Below are positions 41,076-59,728 of a DNA stretch of 60,280 bases, in pieces. The stretch lies in NCBI GenBank assembly GCA_019694655.1, contig JAIBBN010000016.1, positions 1 to 60,280 of the forward strand, given 5' to 3'. The notes below the pieces were generated by a model, which was given only the letters and a program-made list of their open reading frames with translations, searched no databases and was not told the DNA's origin. Source of the DNA: Leptospirales bacterium (GTDB taxonomy: Bacteria > Spirochaetota > Leptospiria > Leptospirales > Leptonemataceae). Every line of letters starts with the position of its first letter. Positions within the stretch are counted from its first letter, which is position 1. The translations under genes were made by a program, and so were the position numbers.

Positions 41076-41810
41076 ATGAATACTCCAGAAGACCCTGCCG
41101 TTCCCGGGCCCTCGCGCGCCGAGGCTCGCGCCGAAGAAACCGGCCTTGCCATTGGCGAGGCGGCCTTTGCCGTCCTCTGCCAGAAGGGCTACCACGGCGC
41201 CTCCATCCGCGACATCGCCAGGGCGGCGCGCGTGTCCGAAGCGCTGCTCTATCACTACTACCCCAACAAGGTTGAGCTGGTGACGGCAGCGTTGATTCAG
41301 AAAATACAGGAGATCAGTCCGCAGATTCTGTCGCCGCTGTCGATTGAGACCCCTCGCAGCGGCAAACTGGACGCCACGCTGCAGGTTTTCTTTGAGTCTC
41401 TGGCGCGCATCTTTGCCAGACCGGAAAGCGGCGAGATGTTTCGTGCGCTGCTGCTCAGCTCCTCGCAGCTGCCGCTGGAACAACAGCGCAGAGTCGTCGA
41501 GGCGCTGCACCGTAACGCCTGGAACCCCGCCGCACAGCGCTTGCATTCGCTGCTGCCCGCCGATCGCCGGCGCGAAATCGACGCTTACGCCCTGTTTCGC
41601 GTCATTCAGGGGGCTTTTATGGGCTACTTCATGTTCCAGGAGACCCTGGGCTGGAAGCAGTTTGTGGAACTCGACCCGCTGCTCTATCGAGAGACGATCG
41701 TTTCCATTCTCAGCGGCGGACTGGCCGCTATCCGACGACAGCCACGGCGCACAAACGCGAATCGCAAAGCCGCCGCTGGCGGCCGCAAACGAAAAAGGGC
41801 AAAGCCATGA
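41076..41810 (+). CDS. TetR-family repressor of the ABC efflux operon
   Basis: A 244-residue TetR/AcrR regulator. The DNA-binding domain holds GYHGASIRDIARAARVSEALLYHYYPNKVEL (helix-turn-helix with the usual LYHYY/F end; written here by its parts GASIRDIARAARVSE and ALLYHYYPNK). The ligand domain is helical and ends in a Lys/Arg-rich tail. It is first in an operon, and its stop overlaps the tolC-type start by 4 bp. The layout matches regulators of YbhGFSR-type exporters. A TTG at 41061 is a less likely start. Confidence 0.9.
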   Translation: MNTPEDPAVPGPSRAEARAEETGLAIGEAAFAVLCQKGYHGASIRDIARAARVSEALLYHYYPNKVELVTAALIQKIQEISPQILSPLSIETPRSGKLDATLQVFFESLARIFARPESGEMFRALLLSSSQLPLEQQRRVVEALHRNAWNPAAQRLHSLLPADRRREIDAYALFRVIQGAFMGYFMFQETLGWKQFVELDPLLYRETIVSILSGGLAAIRRQPRRTNANRKAAAGGRKRKRAKP

Positions 41811-43183
41811 TACGCCGTCATTCGTTCTATCTGCAACTGCCGATCGCGCTTTTTTGCGCCGGCGTCTCGCTGCTGGCGCAGGAACAAGGCGTTGCACTCA
41901 GTCTGGCCGAAGCCGAACGCTACGCGCTATCACGCAACACGGCGCTGCATATTCAGGAAAACCAGACGCGAATCGCCGAACTCAATCGCAGCATTGCCGA
42001 CGCCGCCGCCTGGCCAAAGCTTGGCGCCGTTCTACAATATTCCTGGATGCAACCGCCGCCTGGCGCAAAGCGCGAACTCCTGCCGGGCGTCGAACTCGAT
42101 CTGACCAGCGGCCATGAGGTCGCGTCCTACGGCGTCCAGTTGAGGCAAACGCTCTATGCCGGCGGCCGCATCGAGGCGGCGCAGGAAATTGCGCGTCTTG
42201 GCGAAGAACTCAGCCATCGCCTGCAGGCCGACGCCGCCGGGGCCACACGGCTGCAGGTTCGCACCCTGTTCCTCCAGACTTTGCTCCTTGAAGGCATTGA
42301 GTCGTTGGCCGAGCAGAATGCCGCGCGCGCCGAGCAGCGACGGTTGGATGCCGAGAAACGACTGGCCGCCGGCGTTATTCCGCGCCTGGAATTGCTGAGA
42401 CTCAGCGCCGAAGCGGCCGACGCCAGCGTGGCCCGCAATGAACGCAGTGATCGCACGCGCGCCGCGCGCGCCGCTCTGCGTCTGGCCCTTGATTGGCCCG
42501 AAGAGTCCGGTCCCGCGCTGAGCGGCGACCTTGTATCCTACGCCGATCGCCCCGCGGATCTGCAGTACTTGCGCGATCAATCGGGACATTCGGAACGCCT
42601 CCGCGCGGCGCAATTGCAAGTGCAGATGGCCGAAGCCAACGTCACAGCAACGCGCGGACAGATGCTGCCGACGATCAGCGCCGCAGCCGGCGCCGATCTG
42701 CATCGACCGCATCTGGGACAGAGTCGCTATGATACAGGCTACTCCGTCTCCATGCAGCTAACCATGCCGCTCTTTGAACACGGTCGCATTCAGAACGAAA
42801 TCTCGCGCGCCGAGGTTGAGGCCGAGAATGCCCGACTGCAGCTGCAAAATGCTGAACGGGAGCTGGACAATCTGCGGACGCGAACCGTTGACGCCATTGC
42901 CAGCCTGCAGGCTTCGCTGCCAGCGCGCCGCCAGAATGTAGAACGGGCTCAGGCCGTGCGCGATGCGACAGATGTAGCGCGCCGCAGCGGCGCTGCTTCG
43001 GAGCGCGATCTTTCCGATGCCGAACTGGCCCTGCTTGCAACGCGCACCGACCAGTTGCGCGCCATCAGCGAGTGGCTGATTGCCATGGCGCAATGGGAAC
43101 AGCTCACCGCTTTGCAATCGGGAATCTTTGAATCGAGCGCGCCGCCTTCGCCGGCGTCGGCGCAGGAGTCTTCACAACCATGA
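41807..43183 (+). CDS. TolC-family outer membrane efflux protein
   Basis: A 458-residue outer membrane factor. A signal peptide (LQLPIALFCAGVSLLAQ) precedes two TolC-type repeats of long coiled coils (for example LRQTLYAGGRIEAAQEIARL and LTMPLFEHGRIQNEISRAEV, each a strand-turn-helix block with the YAGG/EHGR turn). Trimers should form the outer membrane channel and periplasmic tunnel for the ABC exporter encoded downstream. It overlaps tetR and the hlyD-type gene by 4 bp each. Confidence 0.92.
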   Translation: MIRRHSFYLQLPIALFCAGVSLLAQEQGVALSLAEAERYALSRNTALHIQENQTRIAELNRSIADAAAWPKLGAVLQYSWMQPPPGAKRELLPGVELDLTSGHEVASYGVQLRQTLYAGGRIEAAQEIARLGEELSHRLQADAAGATRLQVRTLFLQTLLLEGIESLAEQNAARAEQRRLDAEKRLAAGVIPRLELLRLSAEAADASVARNERSDRTRAARAALRLALDWPEESGPALSGDLVSYADRPADLQYLRDQSGHSERLRAAQLQVQMAEANVTATRGQMLPTISAAAGADLHRPHLGQSRYDTGYSVSMQLTMPLFEHGRIQNEISRAEVEAENARLQLQNAERELDNLRTRTVDAIASLQASLPARRQNVERAQAVRDATDVARRSGAASERDLSDAELALLATRTDQLRAISEWLIAMAQWEQLTALQSGIFESSAPPSPASAQESSQP

Positions 43184-44067
43184 ATGGAAACTTTTGGAAA
43201 TATCAATCCATTGTAGTTACTCTATTATTCGTTCTTGCCTGCCAGGGCAGCAAAGAATCCATCGCCGGTTCCGGGGTCATTGAAATCGACGAATACCAGG
43301 TGGCCTCGCTGCTGGGGGCGCGCGTAGAAACCATTCACGTAGAAGAGGGACAACTGGTCCGTCGCGGTCAATTGATTGCAACGCTGGTTGCCGATGAGGC
43401 TTCCGCCGACGTAGGCGCCACGCGCGCCGCGCAGGCCGCCGCGCAACAAAATGTAGCCCAGGCCGAGGCCAACCTTGCCAATGCCAGCGAAGAATTGAGC
43501 CGCGCCCAGACGCTCTTCCAGAGCGGAGTGATTGCCCAGCAGGATCTGGATCGCGCGCGCTTGCGCCGCGATGTGGCGCGTACGCAGCGCGATGCCGCGG
43601 CGGCGCAAAGCAGGCAGAGCGGCGCCACGCGATCGCGCGCCGAGTCGCGACTGCGCGAAACGCATCTCTATGCGCCGGTCGACGGGCGCGTCTTGCGTCG
43701 CAACTTTCTGCCCGGCGAAGTGGTCCTGCCAGGAGCGGCGGTAGCCGTGGTTGGCGATCTGAAGTCGGCTCGACTGCGCATTTTTGTATCGGAGCGCGAT
43801 CTGGCGCGTATCAGGCCGCAGCAGCCAGCGCTGGTCGCCGTCGATGGCCTGTCCAAACCGCGCGCCGCACATGTTTCGATCATTGGCAATGAAGCCGAAT
43901 TCACGCCGCGCAACGTGCAGACCGCTGAGGCGCGGGCGCGACTGGTCTTTGCTGTCACCCTGGCCATCGAAAACAACGACGAGGCGCTGAAGCCAGGCAT
44001 GCCAGCCGATGGTCAGGTGCTTATCGCCGCAGCCGCGCCGGAGGCTGGAGATGACAGCGCTCATTGA
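43180..44067 (+). CDS. HlyD-family periplasmic adaptor, lipoprotein
   Basis: A 295-residue membrane fusion protein with a lipoprotein signal (VVTLLFVLAC). It has a complete adaptor layout: lipoyl half (ETIHVEEGQLVRRGQLIATL), a coiled-coil hairpin from about 65 to 155, the second lipoyl half (THLYAPVDGRVLRRNFLPGE), and a beta-barrel region. This resembles YbhG/EmrA-type adaptors. It should link the inner membrane ABC-2 transporter to the TolC protein. It overlaps its neighbours by 4 bp upstream and 17 bp downstream. Confidence 0.9.
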   Translation: MNGNFWKYQSIVVTLLFVLACQGSKESIAGSGVIEIDEYQVASLLGARVETIHVEEGQLVRRGQLIATLVADEASADVGATRAAQAAAQQNVAQAEANLANASEELSRAQTLFQSGVIAQQDLDRARLRRDVARTQRDAAAAQSRQSGATRSRAESRLRETHLYAPVDGRVLRRNFLPGEVVLPGAAVAVVGDLKSARLRIFVSERDLARIRPQQPALVAVDGLSKPRAAHVSIIGNEAEFTPRNVQTAEARARLVFAVTLAIENNDEALKPGMPADGQVLIAAAAPEAGDDSAH

Positions 44068-44974
44068 AGTTCAAAATGCCGTGCGCAGCTTTGGCGCACA
44101 GCGGGCAGTGGATGGCGTTTCCTTTACGGTGGCGCCTGGCGAAATCTACGGCCTGATAGGACCGGATGGCGCCGGCAAGACCACCATGCTGCGTCTGCTG
44201 GTGGGCGCGCTGGAAGCCGACCAGGGCGATGTGCGCGTCGGCGGCGAAGACCTTCGTCGCCATGCGGATCGCGCGCGGGCGCGGATTGGCTACATGCCGC
44301 AGGCCTTTGGACTTTACGGCGATTTGAGCGTTGCCGAAAATATTCGATTCCTCGGACAGTTGCAGGGCATCCCCCGCGCCCTGCGCGAAAAACGGGCCGC
44401 CGAGCTCTTGCAATTTGTTCGACTGGAAGAGTTCAGCAATCGCCCCGCCGCCGCTCTTTCTGGCGGCATGTACAAGAAACTGGCCATCGCCTGTGCGCTG
44501 ATCCACGAACCTTCCGTGTTGATCCTGGATGAGCCTACCAACGGCGTCGATCCGGTGTCGCGGCGCGAATTGTGGGCGCTGATTTTTGAACTCTCCACAC
44601 GCGGCGTGGCCACGCTGGTCAGCACGCCCTACATGGATGAGGCCGAGCGCTGTGATCGCACCGGACTGCTATGGAAAGGCCAGCTGCTGCGCGAGGGACG
44701 GCCCGCGGATTTGCTTGGAGAACTGGAAGGCCGCATCTTTCGCTGTCAGCCTGACGACAGGACAGGCCTCCCGGAACTGGTGCAGAAACTGCAAGCGCTG
44801 GGCCCGCCGGTCACGGCGGCCTACATTGCCGGGCAGAGCGCACACCTCATCATCGATCAGCGCCGACATTCTACAACCCTGCGCAGCGCGCTGCCGCGCG
44901 GCGTACGGCGCGATACAGTCGCGCCATCCTTCGAGGACCTCTTCATGCATCTGCAGTCCGGCGGCGCAACATGA
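44051..44974 (+). CDS. ABC transporter ATP-binding protein, first
   Basis: A 307-residue ABC-2 type ATPase. Walker A is GPDGAGKTT, the signature is ALSGGMYKKLAIACAL, and Walker B is VLILDEPTNGVDP, followed by the H-loop region. The signature motif SGG is kept but followed by MYKK rather than the more usual QKQR. The ATG at 44051 has GGAG upstream and overlaps the adaptor gene by 17 bp. With the next gene it forms an ATPase pair equivalent to the two halves of YbhF, which is a single protein in E. coli. Confidence 0.93.
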   Translation: MTALIEVQNAVRSFGAQRAVDGVSFTVAPGEIYGLIGPDGAGKTTMLRLLVGALEADQGDVRVGGEDLRRHADRARARIGYMPQAFGLYGDLSVAENIRFLGQLQGIPRALREKRAAELLQFVRLEEFSNRPAAALSGGMYKKLAIACALIHEPSVLILDEPTNGVDPVSRRELWALIFELSTRGVATLVSTPYMDEAERCDRTGLLWKGQLLREGRPADLLGELEGRIFRCQPDDRTGLPELVQKLQALGPPVTAAYIAGQSAHLIIDQRRHSTTLRSALPRGVRRDTVAPSFEDLFMHLQSGGAT

Positions 44975-45936
44975 GCGCGCTGGCAGTGAAGGCGCATCTG
45001 CTGCGCAAGACCTTTGGCGACTTTGTTGCTGTCGACTCGATCAGCTTTGAAGTGCAGCGCGGCGCCATTTTTGGATTTCTGGGGGCCAACGGCGCAGGCA
45101 AGTCCACCACCATTCGCATGCTTTGCGGCATATTGCCGCCGACCTCCGGCGAGGCCGAACTGGAGGGGCTGCGCGTAGGCCGCGACATGCACCAGATCAA
45201 GTCGATCATCGGCTACATGTCGCAGAAATTCTCCCTCTACAGCGACCTCTCAGTTGTTGAAAATATACGATTCTACGGCGGCGTCTACCGTTTGGGCGGC
45301 CGCGAACTGCGACGACGCGAAGAGCAGATTCTGGAAATGGCCGATTTACGCGAGCAATCGCGGCGGCCGGTGCGCGAACTATCCGGCGGCTGGAAGCAGC
45401 GACTGGCGCTGGGCTGCGCCATCCTGCATCGACCGCGGGCCATCTTTCTGGATGAGCCGACCGCCGGCGTCGATCCACAGGCGCGCCGCACCTTCTGGGA
45501 CATTATCTTCCGACTGCGCGACGAAGGCGCCACGGTATTTGTTACCAGCCACTACATGGACGAAGTCGAGCAGTGCGATCGCATCGCCCTCTTGCATCGC
45601 GGGCGCATAGCCGCGCTGGGCTCGCCCTCCGAGTTGAAGGACAACAGCATAATCGGCGCGACCCTTTCCATCCAGAGCCAGAACCCGCTGCGCGCCCGCC
45701 AGGCCTTGCAGGGCTTTCCCGAGCTCTTGCGCATCGATCCCTTTGGCCGCGATCTGCATGCCATTGCACGCACCCGACAGGCGGCGGAAACGGCGCGACT
45801 CTGTCGCCGCATTCAGGCCGCGGCAGAGGCAGCCGGCGCTGGCCGCACTGTGGCGCAGCCAATCCGCCCCAGTCTGGAAGATGTATTTGTTTATATTATT
45901 GGAGAGAACCAAACGATCGGAGAAGCCGCGTCTTGA
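44971..45936 (+). CDS. ABC transporter ATP-binding protein, second
   Basis: A 321-residue ABC-2 type ATPase with Walker A GANGAGKST, the signature ELSGGWKQRLALGCAI, Walker B AIFLDEPTAGVDP and H-loop TSHYMDE. A C-terminal extension of about 80 residues follows the nucleotide-binding domain, typical for ABC-2 exporters. It overlaps both neighbours by 4 bp, with the next start being a TTG. It should pair with the preceding ATPase as a heterodimer under the two permeases. Confidence 0.93.
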   Translation: MSALAVKAHLLRKTFGDFVAVDSISFEVQRGAIFGFLGANGAGKSTTIRMLCGILPPTSGEAELEGLRVGRDMHQIKSIIGYMSQKFSLYSDLSVVENIRFYGGVYRLGGRELRRREEQILEMADLREQSRRPVRELSGGWKQRLALGCAILHRPRAIFLDEPTAGVDPQARRTFWDIIFRLRDEGATVFVTSHYMDEVEQCDRIALLHRGRIAALGSPSELKDNSIIGATLSIQSQNPLRARQALQGFPELLRIDPFGRDLHAIARTRQAAETARLCRRIQAAAEAAGAGRTVAQPIRPSLEDVFVYIIGENQTIGEAAS

Positions 45937-47066
45937 AGGCCTCATTGTTGCGTCTGCTGGCCATGGCCTGGAAGGAGTGGCTGCATATCCGCCGCGATGC
46001 ACGCACGCTCTACATTGCGCTGATCATGCCGTCCGTGCTGGTGCTGCTGTTTGGCTATGCTGTCAATTTTGACGTAGACCGCATCGCCCTGGGCGTGCTG
46101 GACCTCGATGGCACGCAGGCCAGCCGTGCATTGACCATGCGATTGGGCGCCGGCGACTGGTTTTTGCCGCACAACTATTTGAGCCAGGCGGAACTCAGCG
46201 ATGCGATCGAACACGGACAGATCAAGATCGCCCTGCTGATACCGGCCGGCTTTGCTCGCCGTCTGGAACGAGGCGAGGATCAGGCCATCGGGGCCTTTGT
46301 CGACGGATCGGACAACAATGCCGCCGCCATCGGCGTCAACTATCTGCAGCTATTTGTGCTGGACTACTCGCGACGCGTCACGCTGCAGCGACTTGATCGC
46401 TTTGGCGTGCGCCTGCAGGGCGGCATCCAGCTGACGCCGCGCATCCTTTACAATCCGGACCTGCGCAGTCGACACTTCGCCCTGCCTGGACTGATTGTGA
46501 TTGCCCTCGCGGTCATTGCTGCGCTGCTTTCCTCGCTGACGATCGCTCGCGAATGGGAGCGCGGATCGATGGAGCAGTTGATTGCCACGCCGGTGCGACC
46601 GCATGAGATCGTACTGGGCAAGATCGTTCCCTACGCCGTCATCGCCGTCGTCCAGACGCTGGCCGCCACAGCTCTGGCAACCTGGCTTTTCGACGTTCCT
46701 TTTCGCGGCAGCCTGCTGAGTCTACTGGTAGCGGCGACGGCCTTTGCCATTGTCACGCTGGGTATTGGCGTGATGCTTTCAGCGGCGCTGCGCGCTCAGC
46801 TGCCAGCGATGCAGGCGGCGCTGATGTCGTCGCTATTGCCGGCGCTTTTTCTTTCTGGCTTTGTATTTCCCATTGAATCGATGCCGGCGCCGCCGCGCGC
46901 CCTCAGCTACATTGTCCCTGCCCGGCATTTGATCCTGGTGTTTCGAACCATTTTTCTGAAGGGCGAGGGTATTGACACGATCTGGGCGGAACTGCTGATG
47001 CTGGCGCTGCTGGCCTGCGCCGTGCTGTTGATGGCCTCGCGGCGTTTGAAGAAGAGGGTGGCCTGA
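45933..47066 (+). CDS. ABC-2 type permease, first
   Basis: A 377-residue ABC-2 membrane subunit. One N-terminal helix (YIALIMPSVLVLLFGYA) is followed by a large periplasmic domain and five C-terminal helices; the family motif appears as EWERGSMEQLIATPVRP. The long reading frame begins at 45573 inside the ATPase gene, but homology begins with LLRLLAMAWKEWLHIRRD. The best start is the TTG at 45933, which overlaps the ATPase stop (TTGA) and preserves translational coupling. YbhS/YbhR-like. Confidence 0.9.
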   Translation: MKASLLRLLAMAWKEWLHIRRDARTLYIALIMPSVLVLLFGYAVNFDVDRIALGVLDLDGTQASRALTMRLGAGDWFLPHNYLSQAELSDAIEHGQIKIALLIPAGFARRLERGEDQAIGAFVDGSDNNAAAIGVNYLQLFVLDYSRRVTLQRLDRFGVRLQGGIQLTPRILYNPDLRSRHFALPGLIVIALAVIAALLSSLTIAREWERGSMEQLIATPVRPHEIVLGKIVPYAVIAVVQTLAATALATWLFDVPFRGSLLSLLVAATAFAIVTLGIGVMLSAALRAQLPAMQAALMSSLLPALFLSGFVFPIESMPAPPRALSYIVPARHLILVFRTIFLKGEGIDTIWAELLMLALLACAVLLMASRRLKKRVA

Positions 47067-47070
47067 GCTT

Positions 47071-48198
47071 ATGTTTCGTCCGCTGCTGGCATTGATCCAA
47101 AAAGAATTCTTACAGACGCTGCGCGACCGACGCATGCTGGTAATCATTTTCCTGATACCGTTGATTCAGACGACGATCTTTGGCGTTGCAGTGTCCAATG
47201 AAGTGCGCAATGTGCCCATTGCCGTGATCGATTCCAGCCGCACGCTACAGAGCAGGGAATTGATCGATGCCTTGCGCGCCAACGATCACTTTCGATTCGT
47301 CTACCTGGGCCCTGATGTTTCGCGCGGCGAGGAGCTGCTGCGCAACAATGCGGCGCGCATTGCAGTCTATTTTCCGCCGGACTACGCGCGGCGTCTTGAT
47401 CGCGGCGAAGTTGCCACGGTGCAGGCCCTGGTGGACGGCAGCGATTCCAATTCTGCCGGCATCGCCCTGGGATACATGCAGCGCATTGTTGCTGTGCAGT
47501 CCGCTGCGACGCTTCGCCCGCGTTCGCTGTCGCCGATTGCCCTGAGTTCGCGCGGCGGCGTCGAACTGCGCGATCGACTCTGGTACAATCCCGGCGGCGA
47601 GTCGCGCTACTACCTGTTGCCCGGTATTGGCACAATGGTGCTGACCACTGTGATTATGCTGCTGACGGCAATGGGCATCACCCGCGAGCGCGAAACCGGC
47701 TCCTTTGATCAGCTGGTCGTCTCGCCCATTCGCCCCTGGCAATTGCTGCTGGGCAAGACCGCGCCCTTTGCCGTCATCGGTCTGCTTGAAGCCGCACTGG
47801 TAACAGCGGCCAGCGTCTTCCTGTTCGGTCAGCCCTTTGTTGGCTCGCTTGCCACGCTCAGCGCTCTGGATGCGCTCTACGTGGTAGTGATGCTTGGGCT
47901 GGGGCTCTTGATTTCCTCGGTCAGCGCTTCGCAACAGCAGGCCATGCTAACGGTATTCGCTTTTTTGCTGCCGGCAACGATTCTATCCGACTTCTTTTTT
48001 CCGCTGGCCAACATGCCGGAGCCCATTCGCTGGCTGACGATTGTCAATCCGATGCGTTATTGCATGGCCGCGCAACGCATGATCTTCCTGAAAGGCGCAG
48101 GTTTTGCCGAGATCAAATGGAATCTGGTCGCCCTTGCCGGACTTGCCTTTCTATTTTACGGTCTGGGCGCCTTGCGCTTCAAACGAATGTTGCGCTGA
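47071..48198 (+). CDS. ABC-2 type permease, second
   Basis: A 375-residue paralogue of the preceding permease with the same layout: first helix LVIIFLIPLIQTTIFGVA, a periplasmic domain, and five C-terminal helices with the motif TRERETGSFDQLVVSPIRP. The two permeases probably form a heterodimer that accepts substrates from the inner membrane or cytoplasm. It starts 4 bp after the first permease and ends the core exporter cluster. The substrate is unknown; related exporters move drugs, dyes or lipids. Confidence 0.92.
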   Translation: MFRPLLALIQKEFLQTLRDRRMLVIIFLIPLIQTTIFGVAVSNEVRNVPIAVIDSSRTLQSRELIDALRANDHFRFVYLGPDVSRGEELLRNNAARIAVYFPPDYARRLDRGEVATVQALVDGSDSNSAGIALGYMQRIVAVQSAATLRPRSLSPIALSSRGGVELRDRLWYNPGGESRYYLLPGIGTMVLTTVIMLLTAMGITRERETGSFDQLVVSPIRPWQLLLGKTAPFAVIGLLEAALVTAASVFLFGQPFVGSLATLSALDALYVVVMLGLGLLISSVSASQQQAMLTVFAFLLPATILSDFFFPLANMPEPIRWLTIVNPMRYCMAAQRMIFLKGAGFAEIKWNLVALAGLAFLFYGLGALRFKRMLR

Positions 48199-49459: not shown

Positions 49460-49612
49460 GCTTTGCAGCTGGGGCCGGGCTGCAAGGGCGGCAAGAGGAA
49501 AAGCATCGGGGATGACTGAAGCGGGCGGCTCAACCCAGTACTACAAATGGCTGCTTCCCTGATCCCCGGGTGCGCCCAAAAGCAGCTTGACCCCTGCTCA
49601 GTGTTTAGCGTT

Positions 49613-49625
49613 TGAATTGCGTTCA
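49613..49625. promoter_or_regulatory. Candidate TetR operator upstream of tetR
   Basis: TGAATTGCGTTCA is an inverted repeat that matches the 13-bp element between this tetR gene and the efflux genes at 10 of 13 positions, including the whole TGAA and GTTCA arms. It ends 12 bp before the ATG at 49638, where it would block transcription of tetR itself. Confidence 0.5.
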
Positions 49626-49637
49626 GCACTGAAGGTC

Positions 49638-50291
49638 ATGGGCGTCCAGGAGCGAAAGGAGCGCGAGAAGGCGGAAATGCGCCAGAGCATTATCGCCGCG
49701 GCCACCAGGCTCTTTCTGGAAAAGGGCTACGAATCTGTTTCGATTCGCAACATCGCCGCCGCTATTGAGTACAGCCCCGGAACCATCTACTTATACTTCA
49801 AAGACAAGGACGACATTCTGTACGCCATTCAAGATCAGGGCTTTACCCTCTTCTTTGAAACTATGCAGCGAGTCGCAGGCGCCGAAAAAAACCCGCTCAA
49901 ACGACTGCGCAAGCTGGCGCACGCTTACTTTGAGTTTGCTCTCAAGCATCCTGAACACTATGATTTGATGTTTATCATTCGAGCTCCGATGCGCGCCGCT
50001 GAGAGTTGGATGCAGGGCGAGAACTCTTTTGAATTCCTGCGCGCCACGGTTCGCGAGTGTATCGACGCAGAGCTCTTGCCCTTTTCCGATGAAAACGTGG
50101 GGGCAATGTTTTTCTGGTCGCAAGTGCACGGAGCAGTGTCTCTGGCGCTGCGCGATCGGCTGGGAATGTTTCCGGAAAAGGAACGTCAGCGCGTGTTGCG
50201 TCGTAGCGTGGAGCTTACGCTGGACATGGCCGAAGCGCTGCTGCGCGCCCGCCAGCCGCAGCCGGCCCGCCGCGCCCGATCGAGGCGCTGA
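49638..50291 (+). CDS. TetR-family repressor of the RND efflux operon
   Basis: A 217-residue TetR/AcrR protein. The DNA-binding domain contains GYESVSIRNIAAAIEYSP and GTIYLYFKDKDDILYA, the standard helix-turn-helix followed by the LYFxxKD turn. The C-terminal ligand domain resembles TetR_C_33-like helical bundles (HPEHYDLMFIIR). The ATG at 49638 has GAAGG upstream; the frame is open from 49587. Two matching 13-bp palindromes, one on each side of the gene, suggest that it controls both itself and the following pump genes. Confidence 0.9.
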   Translation: MGVQERKEREKAEMRQSIIAAATRLFLEKGYESVSIRNIAAAIEYSPGTIYLYFKDKDDILYAIQDQGFTLFFETMQRVAGAEKNPLKRLRKLAHAYFEFALKHPEHYDLMFIIRAPMRAAESWMQGENSFEFLRATVRECIDAELLPFSDENVGAMFFWSQVHGAVSLALRDRLGMFPEKERQRVLRRSVELTLDMAEALLRARQPQPARRARSRR

Positions 50292-50307: not shown

Positions 50308-50320
50308 TGAACGGTGTTCA
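50308..50320. promoter_or_regulatory. Candidate TetR operator in front of the RND pump genes
   Basis: TGAAC-GGT-GTTCA is a perfect 5-bp inverted repeat with a 3-nt spacer in the short AT-rich gap between tetR and the adaptor gene. It lies 19 bp before the adaptor ATG. A related copy lies in front of tetR. The arrangement fits direct repression of the pump by TetR. Confidence 0.55.
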
Positions 50321-50339: not shown

Positions 50340-51020
50340 ATGCAGAACGTCGTTCGCGCCGGTTGCGGCGCCCTGGACCGCAGCCGGTCAATCTGGGCCT
50401 TCCTGCGCCCCGTCTGGGCGCCTGCCCTGCTGGCAATGTTTGCCTCTTGCGGCGGCAGCGCCGCGAAGGCTGAAACAGATGTCTGGAGATTGCGCTTCGC
50501 GACTCTGGCCGCGGTCACTGTCGCTCCCGCCCTTGCGGCAGTTGCCGAACCTGGATCGCCGGCCGGCGACGGATTGCGAAACTACCATCTGCATCTTGCA
50601 TTGCCGCCGGCGCTGGCCGGCGTCATCCGCCCTGGCGAAAGCGCCACGGCCACAGCGCCGCTGCTCAGCCGGCCTCGTATTCCAGCGCAGGTCCTTACAG
50701 CGACCGGCAGCCAGGCCGTGCTTCGCCTCCAGTTTCCGGCGCGCCTGATCGAGTACCTGACGCTCAGGATCAGCTTTCCGCATTTGAGCGTAGCGGGCGT
50801 CGCGGCGCCTATTGAGTCCATTTACGCTCCAGATGGTCGGCGCGCGTGGATTTTCGTATTGCGTGAAGGTAAACTGCGCCGCATTGGCGTCGAAGCTGTT
50901 GGCGAGGAGCTTCAGACCGGTCGCGTACTCCTGGTTGGCGACGTACGTGCTGGAGAGAAAGTTGCCGTGGAGCGAATCGATGCGCTGCTTGATGGCGACC
51001 GCGCCGAGGAGCGCCGATGA
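50340..51020 (+). CDS. Reduced RND adaptor (membrane fusion protein), lipoprotein
   Basis: A 226-residue protein with a lipoprotein signal (ALLAMFASC). Its last 80 residues match the membrane-proximal domain of RND adaptors: APIESIYAPDGRRAWIFVL, then GKLRRIGVEAVGEELQTG and VLLVGDVRAGEKVAV. Before that lies a possible beta-barrel part (LHLALPPALAGVIRPGESAT). The lipoyl halves (GxxVxxGxxL type) and the alpha-helical hairpin that normally occupy 100-200 residues are not visible, and the protein is only about 60 percent of usual adaptor length. It overlaps the pump gene by 4 bp (ATGA). It should sit in the periplasm on the pump. Confidence 0.75.
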   Translation: MQNVVRAGCGALDRSRSIWAFLRPVWAPALLAMFASCGGSAAKAETDVWRLRFATLAAVTVAPALAAVAEPGSPAGDGLRNYHLHLALPPALAGVIRPGESATATAPLLSRPRIPAQVLTATGSQAVLRLQFPARLIEYLTLRISFPHLSVAGVAAPIESIYAPDGRRAWIFVLREGKLRRIGVEAVGEELQTGRVLLVGDVRAGEKVAVERIDALLDGDRAEERR

Positions 51021-54000
51021 GCGCCGCACGCTGGATTGTTGATCAGCGCATGCTATTTCTGACGCTGACGGTCGCCCTTTCGCTGTCCGGGCTGCTTGCC
51101 TGGCGGAACATGCCCAAAGAGGAAGATCCTCGGCTCAAGGAACGCAACGGCTACCTGATCGTCATCTATCCCGGCGGCTCGCCCGCAGAGATTGAACGCC
51201 TGATCGTGCTGCCTGTAGAAGAGCAGTTTGCCGACATCAGCGACATCAAGAATCTGAGCGTGACGATTCGACGCGAAGCTGCCATCTTCACAATCGAGTT
51301 GCGCGATGCGCTAACCGAGGAGTCGGAGATCAATGAGGCGTGGCGGGACGTGCAGACTGCACTGGAAAAGGCCCGCGTCGATTTCCCTTCCGGCGCGCAG
51401 GCGCCAGAGCTCAATCGCTCGGTGCTGGATCTGGATTCGGTAGTACTCTCGTTGAGCGGCAGTGAAGACCGATTGCTACTGTATCGCTTCGCCCGCGAAT
51501 TGCAACGTCGTTTGCTGCGCAATCCGCTGATTTCCAATGTCCGCTTTTTTGGTCACCCAGAGCGCCTGCTGCGAGTGGACGTCGATGACCGTCAACTGGC
51601 TGCTCAGGGCCTAAACTACAACCAGCTGGCGCGCGCAATTTCAGGCTCGAACCGTGCATTGCCCGCAGGTGCGCTGCACATCCGCGATCTGCGTGTGGGC
51701 GTGAGCACCAATAGTTCTTTTGCCAGCCCCGAAGAGCTGGTTCGGTTGCCAGTGCCGCTGGCGAACGGCGAGGTGCGATTGCTGGGAAATTTCGCCCATG
51801 TTGCCTTGGGCGAACGAAAGCCATCGAGCACGATCGCCGCATACAATGACCATAGCGCCATTCTGGTCGGCGTCGTGGCCCGAAACAATATCGATTTGAT
51901 TGCAATGGGCCGCGCATTGCGTCAGGAGCTGGCGGTCTTTCGCGAGGAAATGAAACGGCAGCCCGAATACCGCGGGCTGGCAGTCGAGGAAATTGCAGCG
52001 CAACCTGACTATGTACGCCGCCGGCTTAGCGAATTGCTCGGCAATCTGGGGTTGAGCATGTTGATCGTGGCGGCCGTCGTCATCGTCGGTATGGGATTTC
52101 GCGCCGGCGCTCTGGCAGCGGCAATGGTGCCAGGCATCGCCCTCGTTGCATTGTTTCTCTACGCCAGCAGCGGAGGCGTGATGCACCAGATCGCAGTAGC
52201 CGCTTTTGTTCTATCCCTTGGCATCCTGATTGATAGCGTCATTGTAGTTACGGAGGCGGTGCAGGAGGGTCTTGATCGCGGACTGGCGCCGCTGGAGTCG
52301 GCGGCCGAAGCCGTGCAGCGTTTCGCTCTGCCGCTGGCCGCCTCCACAGGCACAACGGTGGCCGCATTCTTGCCCATGCTGGGCGCCACCGGAGGGACGG
52401 CCGATTTTACGCGCGCCATCCCGCTGATCGCCATGTTGACTCTGATAGTAAGTTATTGTATATCGATTGTGACGACGCCGCCGCTGGCCGCCAGAACGCT
52501 GCGCGCCGGCGGCGCCCGATCGTGGGCCTGGACCGGGCCAGTCGGACTGCGCCTGGGATCGCTTTCCTATTCTCGACCCTGGCGCACTCTGGTCGTTGCA
52601 TTTGGAGTTGTCTTGCTTGCGGTTGTCGGTTTCTCAGCGGTAAAGAAGCGCTTTTTCCCAGGCGCCGATCGCGATCAACTGGTCGTCGCCATCAACCTGA
52701 CTGAGGGAGCGCACATTGACGCTGCCATGAATATCGCTGACCGCATCGACCGAGAATTGCGCCGCGATACAGCGGTCACGGCAACGACGCGAATTGCCGG
52801 GCGCAGTCTGCCGCAGTTTTACTACAATCTGATACGCAGCCCGCAGAGTCCCCACGTCGCTCAAATTCTCGTTAGCCTGCGCCGCGCCGAAGATGCGCCG
52901 CGCATCGCTGCGCTGGCGCAAACTCTTGGCCGCCGACTGGCGCCGGAAGCGCTGGTTGTCGCTCGCCTTCTGGAACAGGGCCCGCCCTCGCCGGCGCCAG
53001 TTGAGATTCGACTGACCGGAGAAAGCCGGCGCGATCTGGCCGATGCCGTAGACCTGGTTCTTGGCGTTCTGCGCCAGACGCCAGCGGCAACCGCGGCGCG
53101 GCACGATATGGGTCCGGGCTCGTTAAGCCTCCGCTTCCAGATAGGCGACGCTAATGCACTGCAACGCGGTCTCAGTCGCGATGCAATCGCCGCTGCTGTT
53201 CTTGGACGTACGCGGGGTTTGCCGGCAGGAGACTTCCGCGGCGACGATGAATCTATTCCCATAGAAATCGGTTCGGTGGAAGGCGAAAACCTTTCGGCAA
53301 TACGTTTGAAGGAATCGTTCATAGCACGCACTGGCGACGCCAACCTGCGACTTTCTGATCTGGCGACGCCTGTCGTTGAACTTGAACCAGCTGTACTGAG
53401 TCGTCGCAATCGCCAGCCAACGGTCAGCGTGCTCGCTGAGCTGCGACCAGGCGCCACGGCGGCCGAGGCCCTGTCGCAATTTCGCGCCCGTTTGCAGGCA
53501 CAAGCCCTTCCAACTGGCGCTCGCATCAGCTACGGCGGCGAGGCGGAGCGCAGCGCCGAGGCTAACACGGCGATACTGAGGGCGCTGCCCGCCGGTCTTT
53601 CGCTTTTCTTTGTTTCGCTGCTTTTTGAATTCCGCTCAATCAAGAAGCTGTTGATCATTCTGGCAACGATTCCGCTGGCCATGGTTGGCGTAACCCCCGG
53701 GCTGCTGCTCAGCAGGCAGCCTTTTGGTTTCACTGCCTTGTTGGGGATGCTGGCACTGACTGGAATTGTAGTTAATAATGCTATATTGTTGCTCGATGCT
53801 CTTGATCGCTTTCGCCGCGACGATGGCATGGATCTCCGGAAGGCCATGGTTGCCGCAATACAGCGACGCATGCGACCAATTCTTTTGACCACGGCCACGA
53901 CCATTGCCGGACTGCTGCCGCTGGCCTTTACATCAGCCACGCTTTGGCCGCCTTTTGCCTGGTCATTGATGTCCGGACTGGCGCTGTCCACCGGGCTTAC

Positions 54001-55504
54001 TCTGGTCGTAATTCCGGCGCTTTACTCGCTACTGTTTCCGGATCGGTCCGGCGACACGACTCTGCCATCGACGCCAGTAACTTCGTATCTACGCAGCAGG
54101 CTGCGCGGCCGACTCTTTGCGTGGATCACTATGGCCGCCCTGGCCGCGCCGCTTGCCCTTGCTGCGCAGCCGCCCGTCCGATTGCTCGGCCTCGAAGAGA
54201 CCCTGCGGCTGGCGGCGCAGGCGCCGGCGGCTGTACAGGCCGCCGCGGAAGCGAAAGCTCGAGAATACGATGCCCAAAGTTTCCGTCGCAGTATCTATCT
54301 GCCACAGGTCGGCGTAGTGGCCGGAACAGAAATGCGCGATCGTCGCCTGACAGTCCGCACGCCCTTGCTGCCCTTGACCGGAGACTCAGGAGGACAGCGT
54401 CGCGTCGTTCCGCAGGCCGGCATTGAAATTACTCAGCCGCTCTACGATCCTGAGAATATGGACTACCGGGTATACGCCGTCGAATATCAGGCGAAAGCCG
54501 CGGCGCTTCGCGCCGAGCGTGCACGCCAGGAAGCTGTAGCTTCCGCCGCAACTGCCTACCTTGATGTGCTGGAGCTTGACGTTCATCGGAGCTCGCTGCA
54601 ACGTTTTGTGGAGAATCTGAATCGACGACGCAGCGAGGTAAGACGACTCTACGAGCTAGGCATGGTTTCGCAGTCCGATTTGTTGCGCCTGAAGATTGCC
54701 GTCGATGAAGCAAATCGCGCATTGCAAACGCTTGAACAAAAGCGCCCGGTTGCGTTACTGGCATTGGGTCGCAGCGTCGGGTTGGAAATGCCAGCGAACG
54801 CGGCAGGCCTTGATGCCGAATTGCCCGAACGCGCCAGTGTTCCGCTGGAAGGCGAGATCGTCGCAAGTCGAGAACGGCGCTACGATCTACAAGCCCTGGC
54901 TCTTCAAATTCGCGCTCGCGAACGCGAGCTCGAGGCTCTGCAGCTTCCCTTCTTGCCCTCGATTTTTGCTCGAGGTCAATGGGTTTATCAAGATAGCGGA
55001 CAGTTGACAACCAACAACTGGTTTTCCCTGTATCTTGGGCTGCGGCTGCCTATCTTTGAGTCCGCTACGCGCTCATCCCGTCGAAGCGCGGTGGAAAGCG
55101 AACTGCGCGGATTGCGGGCGCTGCAGGCTGACGCTGAACGCGCAGTTCGCATTCAGCTGGAGCTGGCCTGCGCTTCCTTAAGCGAACAGGAACGTGAAGT
55201 GGCCGGTCGTCGCCGGTCGGTAAGCAACGCACGGCAAACCGTTCTTATTGAATTGGAGCGCTATCGCAGCGGCCGATCCTCGCTGTCGACGCTGCTTGAA
55301 GCGGAAGAATTGCTGCGTACTCAAGAAGAAAAACTGGCCCTGGCGCCTCTCGCCTGGCGCCGCGCCTGGTTTGAGTATGCTCTGGCGCGCGGCGATCTGT
55401 CTGTGGCGCCTGACAATTCGCCGGAACCGACGACGACTGCGCCGCACGACTCCCAGACCAGGAACAGCAAAGGCCAATCAAACCAGCTGCACAGACGCAT
55501 TTGA
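51017..55504 (+). CDS. RND efflux pump fused to a TolC-type outer membrane factor
   Basis: A 1495-residue single reading frame. Residues 1 to about 1020 form a complete AcrB-type RND pump: helix 1, porter domain (YPGGSPAEIERLIVLPVEEQ), helices 2-6, a second periplasmic half and helices 8-12. Proton-relay positions differ from AcrB: Asp406-Ser407 in LGILIDSVIVV, and Asn920-Asn921 where AcrB has Lys940. Residues 1026-1050 look like a signal peptide: four Arg, then a hydrophobic run ending LALAA before Gln1051. From there to about 1470 is a full TolC/OMF protein with two coiled-coil repeats (for example PLYDPENMDYRVYAVEY and LPIFESATRSSRRSAVESEL). No in-frame ATG, GTG or TTG occurs between 53969 and 54131, so the OMF part lacks an independent start. 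Three pump and three OMF units per complex would match one-to-one. Whether signal peptidase cleaves the joint is open. Confidence 0.9.
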   Translation: MSAARWIVDQRMLFLTLTVALSLSGLLAWRNMPKEEDPRLKERNGYLIVIYPGGSPAEIERLIVLPVEEQFADISDIKNLSVTIRREAAIFTIELRDALTEESEINEAWRDVQTALEKARVDFPSGAQAPELNRSVLDLDSVVLSLSGSEDRLLLYRFARELQRRLLRNPLISNVRFFGHPERLLRVDVDDRQLAAQGLNYNQLARAISGSNRALPAGALHIRDLRVGVSTNSSFASPEELVRLPVPLANGEVRLLGNFAHVALGERKPSSTIAAYNDHSAILVGVVARNNIDLIAMGRALRQELAVFREEMKRQPEYRGLAVEEIAAQPDYVRRRLSELLGNLGLSMLIVAAVVIVGMGFRAGALAAAMVPGIALVALFLYASSGGVMHQIAVAAFVLSLGILIDSVIVVTEAVQEGLDRGLAPLESAAEAVQRFALPLAASTGTTVAAFLPMLGATGGTADFTRAIPLIAMLTLIVSYCISIVTTPPLAARTLRAGGARSWAWTGPVGLRLGSLSYSRPWRTLVVAFGVVLLAVVGFSAVKKRFFPGADRDQLVVAINLTEGAHIDAAMNIADRIDRELRRDTAVTATTRIAGRSLPQFYYNLIRSPQSPHVAQILVSLRRAEDAPRIAALAQTLGRRLAPEALVVARLLEQGPPSPAPVEIRLTGESRRDLADAVDLVLGVLRQTPAATAARHDMGPGSLSLRFQIGDANALQRGLSRDAIAAAVLGRTRGLPAGDFRGDDESIPIEIGSVEGENLSAIRLKESFIARTGDANLRLSDLATPVVELEPAVLSRRNRQPTVSVLAELRPGATAAEALSQFRARLQAQALPTGARISYGGEAERSAEANTAILRALPAGLSLFFVSLLFEFRSIKKLLIILATIPLAMVGVTPGLLLSRQPFGFTALLGMLALTGIVVNNAILLLDALDRFRRDDGMDLRKAMVAAIQRRMRPILLTTATTIAGLLPLAFTSATLWPPFAWSLMSGLALSTGLTLVVIPALYSLLFPDRSGDTTLPSTPVTSYLRSRLRGRLFAWITMAALAAPLALAAQPPVRLLGLEETLRLAAQAPAAVQAAAEAKAREYDAQSFRRSIYLPQVGVVAGTEMRDRRLTVRTPLLPLTGDSGGQRRVVPQAGIEITQPLYDPENMDYRVYAVEYQAKAAALRAERARQEAVASAATAYLDVLELDVHRSSLQRFVENLNRRRSEVRRLYELGMVSQSDLLRLKIAVDEANRALQTLEQKRPVALLALGRSVGLEMPANAAGLDAELPERASVPLEGEIVASRERRYDLQALALQIRARERELEALQLPFLPSIFARGQWVYQDSGQLTTNNWFSLYLGLRLPIFESATRSSRRSAVESELRGLRALQADAERAVRIQLELACASLSEQEREVAGRRRSVSNARQTVLIELERYRSGRSSLSTLLEAEELLRTQEEKLALAPLAWRRAWFEYALARGDLSVAPDNSPEPTTTAPHDSQTRNSKGQSNQLHRRI

Positions 55505-56214: not shown

Positions 56215-57012
56215 TTAACAGACGATTGGCTTGAGCTCCCACCAGATCATGACCTGGGATCCGCCGTCCGTCGGATTCACTTCCCATCCTCCGCGCATCG
56301 ATTTTACCGGAAAGGGAAAGCCCGGGGCTTCCGCCAGGAAACGCACTGAAAAACTGCGGCCAGGAATATACTCAATGCATTCCTCCTGCCATTGTTGCCC
56401 GGCCTGATTCTCACAAGCGCGCACCGCGCCGACGCCGGGATCCCTGTCTTCGAGTAAGGTCGAATATTTAAGCGAAGGCATGTAGTTCTCAATCTTTCCC
56501 AAATCGCCAACGATCCGCCACATACGGTCTGCTGGCGCATTTGTTTCAACGACGATGCAATGACGATACTCGCCATTACGAGCGCTGCGATGTGCGCGGC
56601 CCGCCGCCCAGAGTTGCCAGAGACCAAATAGTTGCACGACGCCAGCCGTCGCCAGAACGAGGATGTTTCCCTGATTTGAAAATAGCTCAGGAACAGCCAC
56701 GAGCAGCGCCAGAGATCCGCCGACCCACAGGAAATCCGCAATACTGGCAAGCAATGCCCGCCAGGTAGAAACTCGCGGACGCAAAGCCTGAAAGAACAAT
56801 TCCACAGAAAAGAGCGCAGGGCCGGCGCCTACTACTCGGTAAATCAACGTCGCCTGAATGCCAAGCCAGGCGCCCGGCAAAGCCGGCTGCAAAAGCATCA
56901 GGGCAGCGGAAGCGAGCGAAAACAAGGCGTTGGCGGCCAGGGCAAGACGCAGCGGTGTAGCAGGTTTCCGGAGTATCTCCGGTTTGCGATCAAGAAAAAT
57001 CGGGCACAGCAA
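56215..57012 (-). CDS. Membrane protein with C-terminal SRPBCC domain, probably truncated
   Basis: A 265-residue protein with four membrane helices in the first 140 residues (for example LALAANALFSLASAALMLLQ and WVGGSLALLVAVP) followed by a polyketide-cyclase-like START domain (CIVVETNAPADRMWRIVGDL to VMIWWELKPIVC). The SRPBCC domain stops about 30 residues early; its normal C-terminal helix is absent in this frame but a plausible helix appears in another frame just downstream. A frameshift or natural truncation is therefore likely. The start is a TTG at 57012 and is uncertain. Confidence 0.65.
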   Translation of the reverse strand: MLCPIFLDRKPEILRKPATPLRLALAANALFSLASAALMLLQPALPGAWLGIQATLIYRVVGAGPALFSVELFFQALRPRVSTWRALLASIADFLWVGGSLALLVAVPELFSNQGNILVLATAGVVQLFGLWQLWAAGRAHRSARNGEYRHCIVVETNAPADRMWRIVGDLGKIENYMPSLKYSTLLEDRDPGVGAVRACENQAGQQWQEECIEYIPGRSFSVRFLAEAPGFPFPVKSMRGGWEVNPTDGGSQVMIWWELKPIVC

Positions 57013-57192: not shown

Positions 57193-58815
57193 ATGTGCGA
57201 TCTCCCCCTGCTGGCGCATGGTACTATCCGCTTCGCATCGAGAATTTTTGTGAAGGTTCGTATTTTCTTGATCGTATCCTTGCCTCTAGCGGTCGGTCTG
57301 CTCCTGTCCGGCGTCGTAGCGGCAGATACGCCTGCGTCTGGCGGATACGTCCAGCCGCGCTTCACATATCAAAGCACAATTCCTCCCGAGCTGCTCCTGC
57401 CTGGGGTCTCTCCGGCTCAGGTGAACATCCAACGCTACTGGAACTATCGTGCGCGCCTGCGCAACGAGTTCGTAGCCTTCGACAACCAGCAAGGCAGCTG
57501 TTTGCCGGCGACGGGCATTCTCACCCTGCCCGATGGCCGTCGCTGGGCGACCTGGGGCGACGCGACCGCCAAGCTTGGCTGGTACATGGGCGCGCTGGCC
57601 ACAGAGCTCTATATGCTGGGTCATCCGCAGCAATACCCCGGCTTTGGCGGCGCCGGCGACGTCCACAACGCAACGCGAGAACTCTACTGCGCGCTGCTGG
57701 CGCTGGAACGACTGGATCGCTTTGGCGAGCAGGCGATGTGGAGCGACCATCCGATTCGCGTGGCCAACTATTACGGCGCAGCCGGTTATCAATGGCCGGA
57801 CACTCCTGGCTTTTTCATTCGCGATGACGTGACCGCCGCGACCGGAAAGAAGCTATCGCTGAGTTCCGGTCAGTCCGACTATACAGCCGCCTGGGGTCCG
57901 GATTTTGTGCTGCCGCCCGTCGCACGCGCCTCACAACAACGCAAGAACAAGGAGATGAGCCAGGATCAGGTTGTCCACTTGCTGATCGGTCTGGCGCTGA
58001 TTAAACAATACGCTCCTGCAGATCTTTCGTATAACAATAGCAATCTCCGCAACTGGGCGATTGCCAAGAGCGGACAGCTTGTCGCTTATCTCGATCGCGG
58101 CCATATCAATGCCGGCGAGATCTTCGGCGAGCCGATTCGCCAGAAGATCTACTGGCTCATTGAGGAGCCGGTGTCGCCCAAGCTGAACGCGCTGGGCATC
58201 TGCCCCTTCTGTGTGCGCTGGTTCAACCCTTACAGTCCTGTCGATGTCAACCACATGGACCTGGTCGAGCGCGGTCATGATGCGCGCGCCTTCGCCGGCG
58301 GTTTCAATCTGGCCGGGGCGTGGATCAACGGGCAAAGCCACCCAGTCAGCGCGACCAATGCTCGACTCTGGCAGCTTGCGGCCGTACCGACAACGCCGGA
58401 TAACATCCATATGGCCATGTCGCTGGCTGCCATTGGCCACGGCTGGGGAGCGCAGACCACAGCGCTGCTTTCCTCCCTGGCGCCAATTAACGATTTTTGC
58501 TTGTATCCGCTCTTGCATGGCCTCCTGCATGAGGGCGGGGCCCTGCCGCCGAATGTGGAATCCAAGATTGTGGCGATGTTGAGCGCGGCGCCCTATGGAG
58601 GAACCTCCGCCGACGGAACGCCCGGATGGAGTTCACAAAATCGTTTCATGCAGCCCAAGAAGGAGCATGACCAGAAGTCTCCTTTGCGCTGGACCTTCCA
58701 CGGCCTGGATTATATATTGCTTAACAACCTTTACTATCTGGCGCGGCCGGCGGCCTATACGGGCGTATCGCCTTCTGAACGCCCGGCAAGCATTCCTGAG
58801 ATCGCTCCGCTTTGA
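57193..58815 (+). CDS. Large secreted protein of unknown function
   Basis: A protein of up to 540 residues with a signal peptide (VRIFLIVSLPLAVGLLLSGVVA). The GTG at 57253 would give a more standard signal length than the ATG at 57193, and either is possible. The mature part is rich in Trp, Tyr and Gly and has long helical stretches with WGDATAKLGWYMGALATELY, RELYCALLALERLDRFGEQ and DQVVHLLIGLALIKQY. This suggests an alpha/alpha barrel of the kind seen in glycan-active enzymes, but I do not recognise the family. A Cys pair is present (GICPFC). A LamG-type lipoprotein gene follows. Confidence 0.75.
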   Translation: MCDLPLLAHGTIRFASRIFVKVRIFLIVSLPLAVGLLLSGVVAADTPASGGYVQPRFTYQSTIPPELLLPGVSPAQVNIQRYWNYRARLRNEFVAFDNQQGSCLPATGILTLPDGRRWATWGDATAKLGWYMGALATELYMLGHPQQYPGFGGAGDVHNATRELYCALLALERLDRFGEQAMWSDHPIRVANYYGAAGYQWPDTPGFFIRDDVTAATGKKLSLSSGQSDYTAAWGPDFVLPPVARASQQRKNKEMSQDQVVHLLIGLALIKQYAPADLSYNNSNLRNWAIAKSGQLVAYLDRGHINAGEIFGEPIRQKIYWLIEEPVSPKLNALGICPFCVRWFNPYSPVDVNHMDLVERGHDARAFAGGFNLAGAWINGQSHPVSATNARLWQLAAVPTTPDNIHMAMSLAAIGHGWGAQTTALLSSLAPINDFCLYPLLHGLLHEGGALPPNVESKIVAMLSAAPYGGTSADGTPGWSSQNRFMQPKKEHDQKSPLRWTFHGLDYILLNNLYYLARPAAYTGVSPSERPASIPEIAPL

Positions 58816-58897
58816 GGTTTGGCCGGGTTGCCCCCCGTTGGCCGGGCTCTGCTTGAACCGCGCGGCCATGCTGCCCGGCGAGGCGACCGAGAATCGT

Positions 58898-59728
58898 ATG
58901 CGAAACTGCGCAATGAAGGCTGAAAAGCCGCGGCCTTCGATCAGAATGCTGGCGCTCGTCGTTCTTCAAGCGACGGCGTGGATGGCGTGTTCCTATTTTC
59001 CGGCCGACACGAACTCAGATCCGGAGCTTTCACTGCTGGCCCTGGGCAACGGCTGCGGCGCCTCCTACTCAAGTGCGATTAGGGCAAGCTCCGGACTGAT
59101 CGCTTACTGGCCGCTGGACGAACAATCCGGCACAACCGGCGCCGCCGTCGTCGGCGCTCCAAACTTCACATTCGTTTCCGGCGTCACGCCCGGGCTGGAC
59201 GGATTTGCGCCCGACGGTTCCTCGCGAGCTATTGGTACATCGCATGTGTTTACAAATATTACTGCACCTACCTATGCCACCACGCAGCTGGACAACATAT
59301 CGATGGAAATCTGGATGTACTGGGACGGCGACGTTTCTGCGATTCATGACGTATTTTACAACGGAGAAACCAGCACGCAAGGCTACGGCATCTATCTGAC
59401 TCCGGCCGGCGCCCTGACCCTGCTCAGCGGCGGCGTCGCCGCCAGTGTTTCCACTTATACGCCGCCGGTGCAGCAATGGACTCATGTTGTACTGGAACGC
59501 GATGGCGGTCAGTGGAGGCTATTCACAAACGCAGTAGAGCAAAGCCTGCCACTGAATCCCGCGCCCAATGCCATCAACAGCATAACGCAACCTGCCACGC
59601 GCATTCAACTGGCCAACAGTCAGTCAACTGCCGAGTTCTTTGGCGGCCGACTTGCCGCCGCAGCCATCTACGGCGTCGCACTGCCAGCGGCGCAAATTGC
59701 CGCTCACTTTGCTGCAGCGTGCTATTAG
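58898..59728 (+). CDS. Lipoprotein with LamG/concanavalin-like domain
   Basis: A 276-residue surface-type lipoprotein. The signal ends in LQATAWMAC, giving an acylated Cys. The mature part is one jelly-roll domain of the LamG_3 type with typical markers: SGLIAYWPLDEQSGTTG, NISMEIWMYWDG, WTHVVLERDGGQWRLFTNA and FFGGRLAAAAIYGVALPAAQI. Such domains bind sugars or proteins. An upstream frame is open from 58595 but overlaps the preceding gene, so the ATG at 58898 is chosen; 58913 is an alternative. The gene lies 82 bp after the large secreted protein and may act with it. Confidence 0.85.
   Translation: MRNCAMKAEKPRPSIRMLALVVLQATAWMACSYFPADTNSDPELSLLALGNGCGASYSSAIRASSGLIAYWPLDEQSGTTGAAVVGAPNFTFVSGVTPGLDGFAPDGSSRAIGTSHVFTNITAPTYATTQLDNISMEIWMYWDGDVSAIHDVFYNGETSTQGYGIYLTPAGALTLLSGGVAASVSTYTPPVQQWTHVVLERDGGQWRLFTNAVEQSLPLNPAPNAINSITQPATRIQLANSQSTAEFFGGRLAAAAIYGVALPAAQIAAHFAAACY

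Follow-up and report, generated by a model that had tools for sequence, protein, structure and literature searches.

The outer membrane factors TolC, OprM and VceC are made separately, each with its own N-terminal signal peptide. TriC (TriABC-OpmH) and MexK (MexJK) of Pseudomonas aeruginosa, which are the closest solved RND pumps to the one described here, are chains of 1022-1031 aa without a fused channel. Among spirochaetes, the Borrelia BesABC system (4kks; PMC3807786; PMC2279261) is an RND pump with a reduced adaptor. BesA is hairpin-less and keeps the lipoyl, barrel and membrane-proximal domains, and direct contact between exit duct and transporter was proposed for it (PMC3807786). A natural fusion of an RND pump to its channel was not found described in our literature search, nor in the available part of a review (PMC8277102).

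The window, i.e. the whole stretch of DNA that was analysed (60,280 nucleotides of a Leptospirales bacterium), differs from these systems in that the channel is part of the pump frame. Positions 51017-55504 of the plus strand form a single open frame of 1495 aa with no internal stops, and its start codon overlaps the stop codon of an upstream adaptor gene (ATGA). The features of the locus are:

49587 to 50291, plus strand: TetR-family regulator (TetR_N and TetR_C_33; Pfam 4.5e-16 and 2.5e-16)
50308 to 50320, no strand: palindrome TGAAC-GGT-GTTCA between the TetR and adaptor genes, read from the sequence
50340 to 51020, plus strand: putative reduced periplasmic adaptor of 226 aa with a lipoprotein-like N-terminus and beta-barrel and membrane-proximal parts (reduced-adaptor profile, weak fold matches, relative P0004 in G009)
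51006 to 51011, plus strand: Shine-Dalgarno-like GAGGAG, 5 nt ahead of the fusion start, read from the sequence
51017 to 54031, plus strand: RND pump part, residues 1-1005 (Pfam ACR_tran 4e-120; 6vej 2e-99; MexK 3e-97)
54095 to 54166, plus strand: predicted internal signal peptide, residues 1027-1050 (sequence and comparison with 10 relatives)
54131 to 54133, plus strand: sole in-frame ATG near the joint, an unlikely start (no Shine-Dalgarno sequence, no n-region, not conserved)
54167 to 55504, plus strand: outer membrane factor part of TolC/OprM type, residues 1051-1495 and stop (Pfam OEP 4e-34; OprM 3.6e-8; fold matches to VceC, OprM and TolC)

The pump part matches ACR_tran over its full length (residues 6-1006) with 402.7 bits against a cut-off of 28, which places it in the RND superfamily, and TriC (6vej) and MexK are its nearest solved relatives across the whole part. 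It scores below the NCBIfam cut-offs for multidrug RND pumps (338.8 and 222 against 1250 for RND_permease_1 and RND_permease_2; 183 against 940 for 2A0602) and below that for CusA/CzcA heavy-metal RND pumps (TIGR00914; 182 against 701), and in a tree it branches apart from the CusA rows of Bacteroidota. In the last third of the protein OEP is found in two stretches (118.5 bits), and OprM is the nearest solved channel. An AlphaFold2 model of residues 1009-1495 has helices and strands in the order of TolC, with long helices at 142-205, 211-246, 324-409 and 415-450 (model numbering) and strands between them, and Foldseek matched it to VceC, OprM and TolC over its whole length (about 450 columns, E-values of 1e-6 to 5e-5). 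The model was built from two sequences and has a mean pLDDT of 61.6, so that it supports a TolC-like fold of the C-terminal part and not its details. The window channel thus has the fold and the OEP repeats in common with TolC, OprM and VceC, and it differs from them in that the signal-like segment, which in a separately secreted protein would form the N-terminus, sits inside the pump frame. Together these results bear out the first-pass annotation, which had read the frame as a pump and an outer membrane factor joined without a stop.

The joint of the window protein reads LRSRLRGRLFAWITMAALAAPLALAA, followed by the predicted cut and then Q (residues 1006-1060: LFPDRSGDTTLPSTPVTSYLRSRLRGRLFAWITMAALAAPLALAAQPPVRLLGLEE). 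Signal peptidase I is predicted to cut after 54166 (LAA then Q) or one residue before it (ALA then A). The window joint agrees with the earlier description of this segment as having the form of an ancestral outer-membrane signal peptide, with four arginines, a hydrophobic run and an LAA-Q end. Identity among the joints is mostly 0-35%, yet in every relative basic residues come first, then a hydrophobic run of roughly 11-24 residues, and small residues close the segment. Signal peptides evolve in this manner. The ends among fused members are ALAA/Q, SLAA/Q, SHA/Q, AHA/Q, GISA/D, LPA/A, GVFA/E, LFS/E and IFS/Q (the slash marks the predicted cut); those of G038 and G100 (ISS, ISG) are weak. By a crude cleavage-site score the joints stood out to a modest degree from 125 hydrophobic segments of ordinary RND pumps (Mann-Whitney p 0.03; Fisher p 0.057), since Ala and Gly abound in RND helices as well, and our reading does not depend on this score. 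In the fusion of G009 (L057:2591-7126) a Q/S/T repeat of about 35 residues (QTQSQSQSQ...; residues 1068-1099) lies right behind the predicted cut site; it may be a spacer or an expanding repeat.

The fusion is real and old. It is present in ten other genomes, complete in nine and cut by a contig end in one (G100), with 30-48% identity to the window protein. These are G009; G061 and G100; G038, G113, G169, G076 and G206 (three families of the class); and the MAG Spirochaetaceae PLM2.Bin37, with a full fusion at 36% identity, together with its relative G379. G009 belongs to the same family as the window genome and is 47% identical in the pump and 41% in the channel. When the channel part was searched alone in 247 genomes of the phylum, its nearest relatives lay in open frames of 1424-1518 codons (G009, G061, G076, G206, G038, G113 and G169). 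A channel profile run over 48 genomes of the class gave nine matches at E <= 1e-146, including the window, all of them fused, and the next, unfused channels followed at 1e-23. No split copy was seen among the close channel relatives in the ten other genomes, so the arrangement of two separate genes, which would have spoken against the first-pass annotation, did not turn up, and its expectation that related genomes keep the fusion held. G100 was considered as a split relative for its frame of 715 codons and rejected, as this frame ends at the contig end and is open into the pump part. A quick maximum-likelihood tree was run with nine of the fused pumps, and all nine fall into one clade (SH-aLRT 100), separate from the CusA rows of Bacteroidota; unfused pumps of other phyla are represented in this tree by these rows alone. 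G061, G076, G206 and G169 also group as a clade. Between the closely related G038 and G113 (NG86), the pump has a dS of 0.83, a dN of 0.051 and a dN/dS of 0.06, the channel a dS of 1.16, a dN of 0.106 and a dN/dS of 0.09, and the joint (36 codons, no indels) a dN/dS of about 0.36. None of the 2637 plasmid records with an RND match has one spanning 80% of the fusion. The FlaA family, which occurs in the window genome and in the relatives but is absent from all 14 control genomes, marks the window genome as that of a spirochaete. Elsewhere in the window genome (G000 C4:199197-202286 and C3:24645-27695), two RND-like matches contain one or two in-frame stops; they may be pseudogenes, broken frames or pairs of adjacent genes.

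A fusion unique to the window genome is rejected by these ten genomes and also by the Bacteroidota. Frames of 1440-1506 codons of the CusA/CzcA type (TIGR00914) occur in at least 26 of the 61 Bacteroidota genomes sampled, and a profile found a TolC-family C-terminal domain in the one protein of these that was scanned. As in the window, pump, internal signal peptide and channel follow each other in one frame. In 17 of the 18 Bacteroidota joints checked there is a hydrophobic run as well as a small-x-small signal-peptidase site with Gln behind it, and in this phylum a Gln directly after the cut is what marks the substrates of signal peptidase I (PMC5837995). The first-pass annotation knew of no well-described pump with this architecture; uniqueness is not supported, since the layout of pump, signal and channel is common in Bacteroidota metal pumps and so is not new to nature. 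The Bacteroidota proteins differ from the window protein in that they belong to the heavy-metal RND subfamily and have a separate position in the tree, and the one operon that was inspected has a full-length adaptor of 408 aa, unlike the window. The spirochaete and Bacteroidota fusions are thus two unrelated events in which the same device was kept. What is new here is a second, independent origin in spirochaete RND pumps that are not CusA, and that this origin goes together with an adaptor that shrinks.

This adaptor, encoded directly upstream and absent from the first-pass annotation, is the more interesting part of the locus. The product of 50340-51020 has no Pfam match, and its assignment comes from weak E-values. 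Profile A4, built from the window adaptor and three relatives, matched only adaptors in the PDB (4l8j, 0.0046; BesA 4kks, 0.0084; MexJ, 0.023), and the matches fall in the barrel and membrane-proximal part. The AlphaFold2 model has low confidence (49.5) and its weak fold matches are headed by BesA and ZneB. Between the N-terminal strand and the beta-barrel of the window adaptor no lipoyl half-motif or hairpin is recognisable, and 226 aa leave no room for a hairpin. Nothing is missing from the front of the gene through truncation, since only about 50 bases lie between it and the TetR gene. We read the product, at the strength of these matches, as an adaptor reduced to barrel and membrane-proximal parts. 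The adaptor of G009 (P0004) is likewise reduced, and neither of the two has lipoyl half-motifs ahead of the barrel. The window adaptor would thus go one step further than BesA, which keeps its lipoyl domain; a further difference is that BesB and BesC are separate components of the besCAB operon. The adaptors of G038 and G113 resemble BesA, with lipoyl halves that can be recognised and no hairpin, and those of PLM2.Bin37 and G379 are complete. At the fusion loci of G061, G076, G206 and G169 there is no adaptor gene beside the fusion. Two full-size adaptors, of about 480 aa, were found beside unfused pumps of the family.

The most probable explanation of the locus is that one precursor is cut by signal peptidase I, so that pump and channel arise from one translation event and a reduced adaptor sits on the pump. 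The ribosome would make the 12-helix pump, whose C-terminus would be cytoplasmic. The basic and hydrophobic segment behind it would serve as a signal peptide inside the chain and bring the channel part into the periplasm, which agrees with the proposal of the first-pass annotation that an N-in/C-out thirteenth segment would deliver the channel there. Signal peptidase I would then cut near residue 1050, after which the freed channel would trimerise and insert in the outer membrane while the pump trimer would remain in the inner membrane. Pump and channel would be produced in equal amounts. Of the fixed ratio of one to one that had been suggested for the subunits, the part concerning synthesis can stand, but after cutting the ratio would no longer be locked. 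The small lipoprotein-like adaptor, which would be co-translated, would retain its pump-binding half (beta-barrel and membrane-proximal parts), and since only this half is kept, the tip of the channel probably sits on the crown of the pump, bridged by the adaptor slightly or not at all.

If the joint were not cut, it would form a thirteenth transmembrane helix and the channel would reach the outer membrane covalently tethered to the pump. The single frame with a plausible helix would fit this, as would the reduction or absence of the adaptors, whose place a tether might have taken. However, the N-terminus of a TolC-type channel lies at mid-barrel, and by the dimensions of TolC and AcrB this puts it at least some 10 nm away from the inner membrane in any docked model. 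With a linker between joint and channel of about 3-25 residues in most members, which is too short for this distance, a working outer-membrane channel should need to be cut free. In addition, cleavage-site character is kept at the joints, strongly so in the independent Bacteroidota set. The first-pass annotation had left tether and cut side by side; because the linkers are mostly too short and the Bacteroidota joints keep signal-peptidase sites with Gln, cutting is much the likelier, and we regard a permanent tether as improbable, with G009 and its Q/S-rich linker as the one member where it is conceivable. It is more improbable still that two proteins are made, with the pump part ended by another route and the channel initiated internally at the ATG at 54131. 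This ATG is in frame, and in G076, G169 and PLM2 a Met precedes the hydrophobic run, but the ATG at 54131 lacks a Shine-Dalgarno sequence and a basic n-region, and a start there would give a signal of 12 residues without a basic beginning. G038, G113, G100 and G206 have no well-placed ATG, and none of the joints examined contains a stop codon. Internal initiation at 54131 was rejected on the missing Shine-Dalgarno sequence and the lack of conservation. In the window the stretch from Met985 (53969) to this ATG is free of further in-frame ATG, GTG and TTG codons, which supports the argument of the first-pass annotation that the fusion is not the product of a single lost stop codon. Least of all do we expect an error of assembly or sequencing that joined two neighbouring genes. 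The window does make up a whole contig in a draft genome of 33 contigs, but ten other genomes have the same fusion at 30-48% identity, among them copies that lie intact within contigs 1.7 and 4.4 Mb long, and this rejects such an error in practice.

Besides these alternatives on processing, the protein may be fused and processed as proposed and still not serve drug export. As a TriC/MexK-like transporter it would then move lipids, envelope components or another specific substrate; this is compatible with the processing model, differs from it on the substrate alone, and is a possibility that we rate well below even. It is in line with TriC and MexK as the nearest solved relatives, with the Polyketide_cyc2 genes that lie close to the fusion both here and in G076, and with the residue at the position that corresponds to Lys940 of AcrB, which is Asn in the window pump and Arg in TriC. 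On the other side, a TetR regulator adjoining the operon is typical of drug pumps, and all three proteins that were aligned have the Asp of the proton relay (406). Where the flanks are long enough, a TetR-like gene adjoins the fusion or lies in its vicinity, several of these genes being named by sequence only. This neighbour suggests toxic small molecules as the substrate, and the regulator may control the operon through the palindrome at 50308-50320, which is a candidate operator. The true start of the TetR gene probably lies further inside than the TTG at 49587 given in the list of open reading frames.

Other genes surround the locus. A separate exporter operon (41807-48198, plus strand), 1.4 kb upstream of the TetR gene, has its own unfused channel (OEP 4.6e-44), an HlyD-type adaptor, two ABC ATPases and two ABC-2 permeases. 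The Polyketide_cyc2 (lipid-transfer-like) gene near the window fusion lies at 56218-57012 on the minus strand, and that of G076 (L052:6800-7366) directly upstream of the fusion. Further on, a protein of 540 aa without a Pfam match (57193-58815, plus strand) is followed by a Laminin_G_3 (lectin-like) protein (58595-59728).

The adaptors of the clade could be ordered as a stepwise dismantling, from full (PLM2.Bin37, G379) through hairpin-less (G038, G113) and barrel-only (window, G009) to no adjoining gene (G061, G076, G206, G169). The end state would be a two-part pump in which the channel docks directly on the transporter and both are released from one precursor. We offer this order tentatively and doubt that it holds in full; fusion and adaptor loss are correlated and no more than that, because reduced adaptors are known in other spirochaetes without the fusion. 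Still, whether pump and channel touch directly or are in contact only via the adaptor hairpins was long disputed in efflux biology, and nature has put this question to the test in a clade where pump and channel are made as a single chain and the adaptor dwindles until it is gone. The fusions also point to a bacterial polyprotein, with parts bound for different membranes, in two independent lineages.
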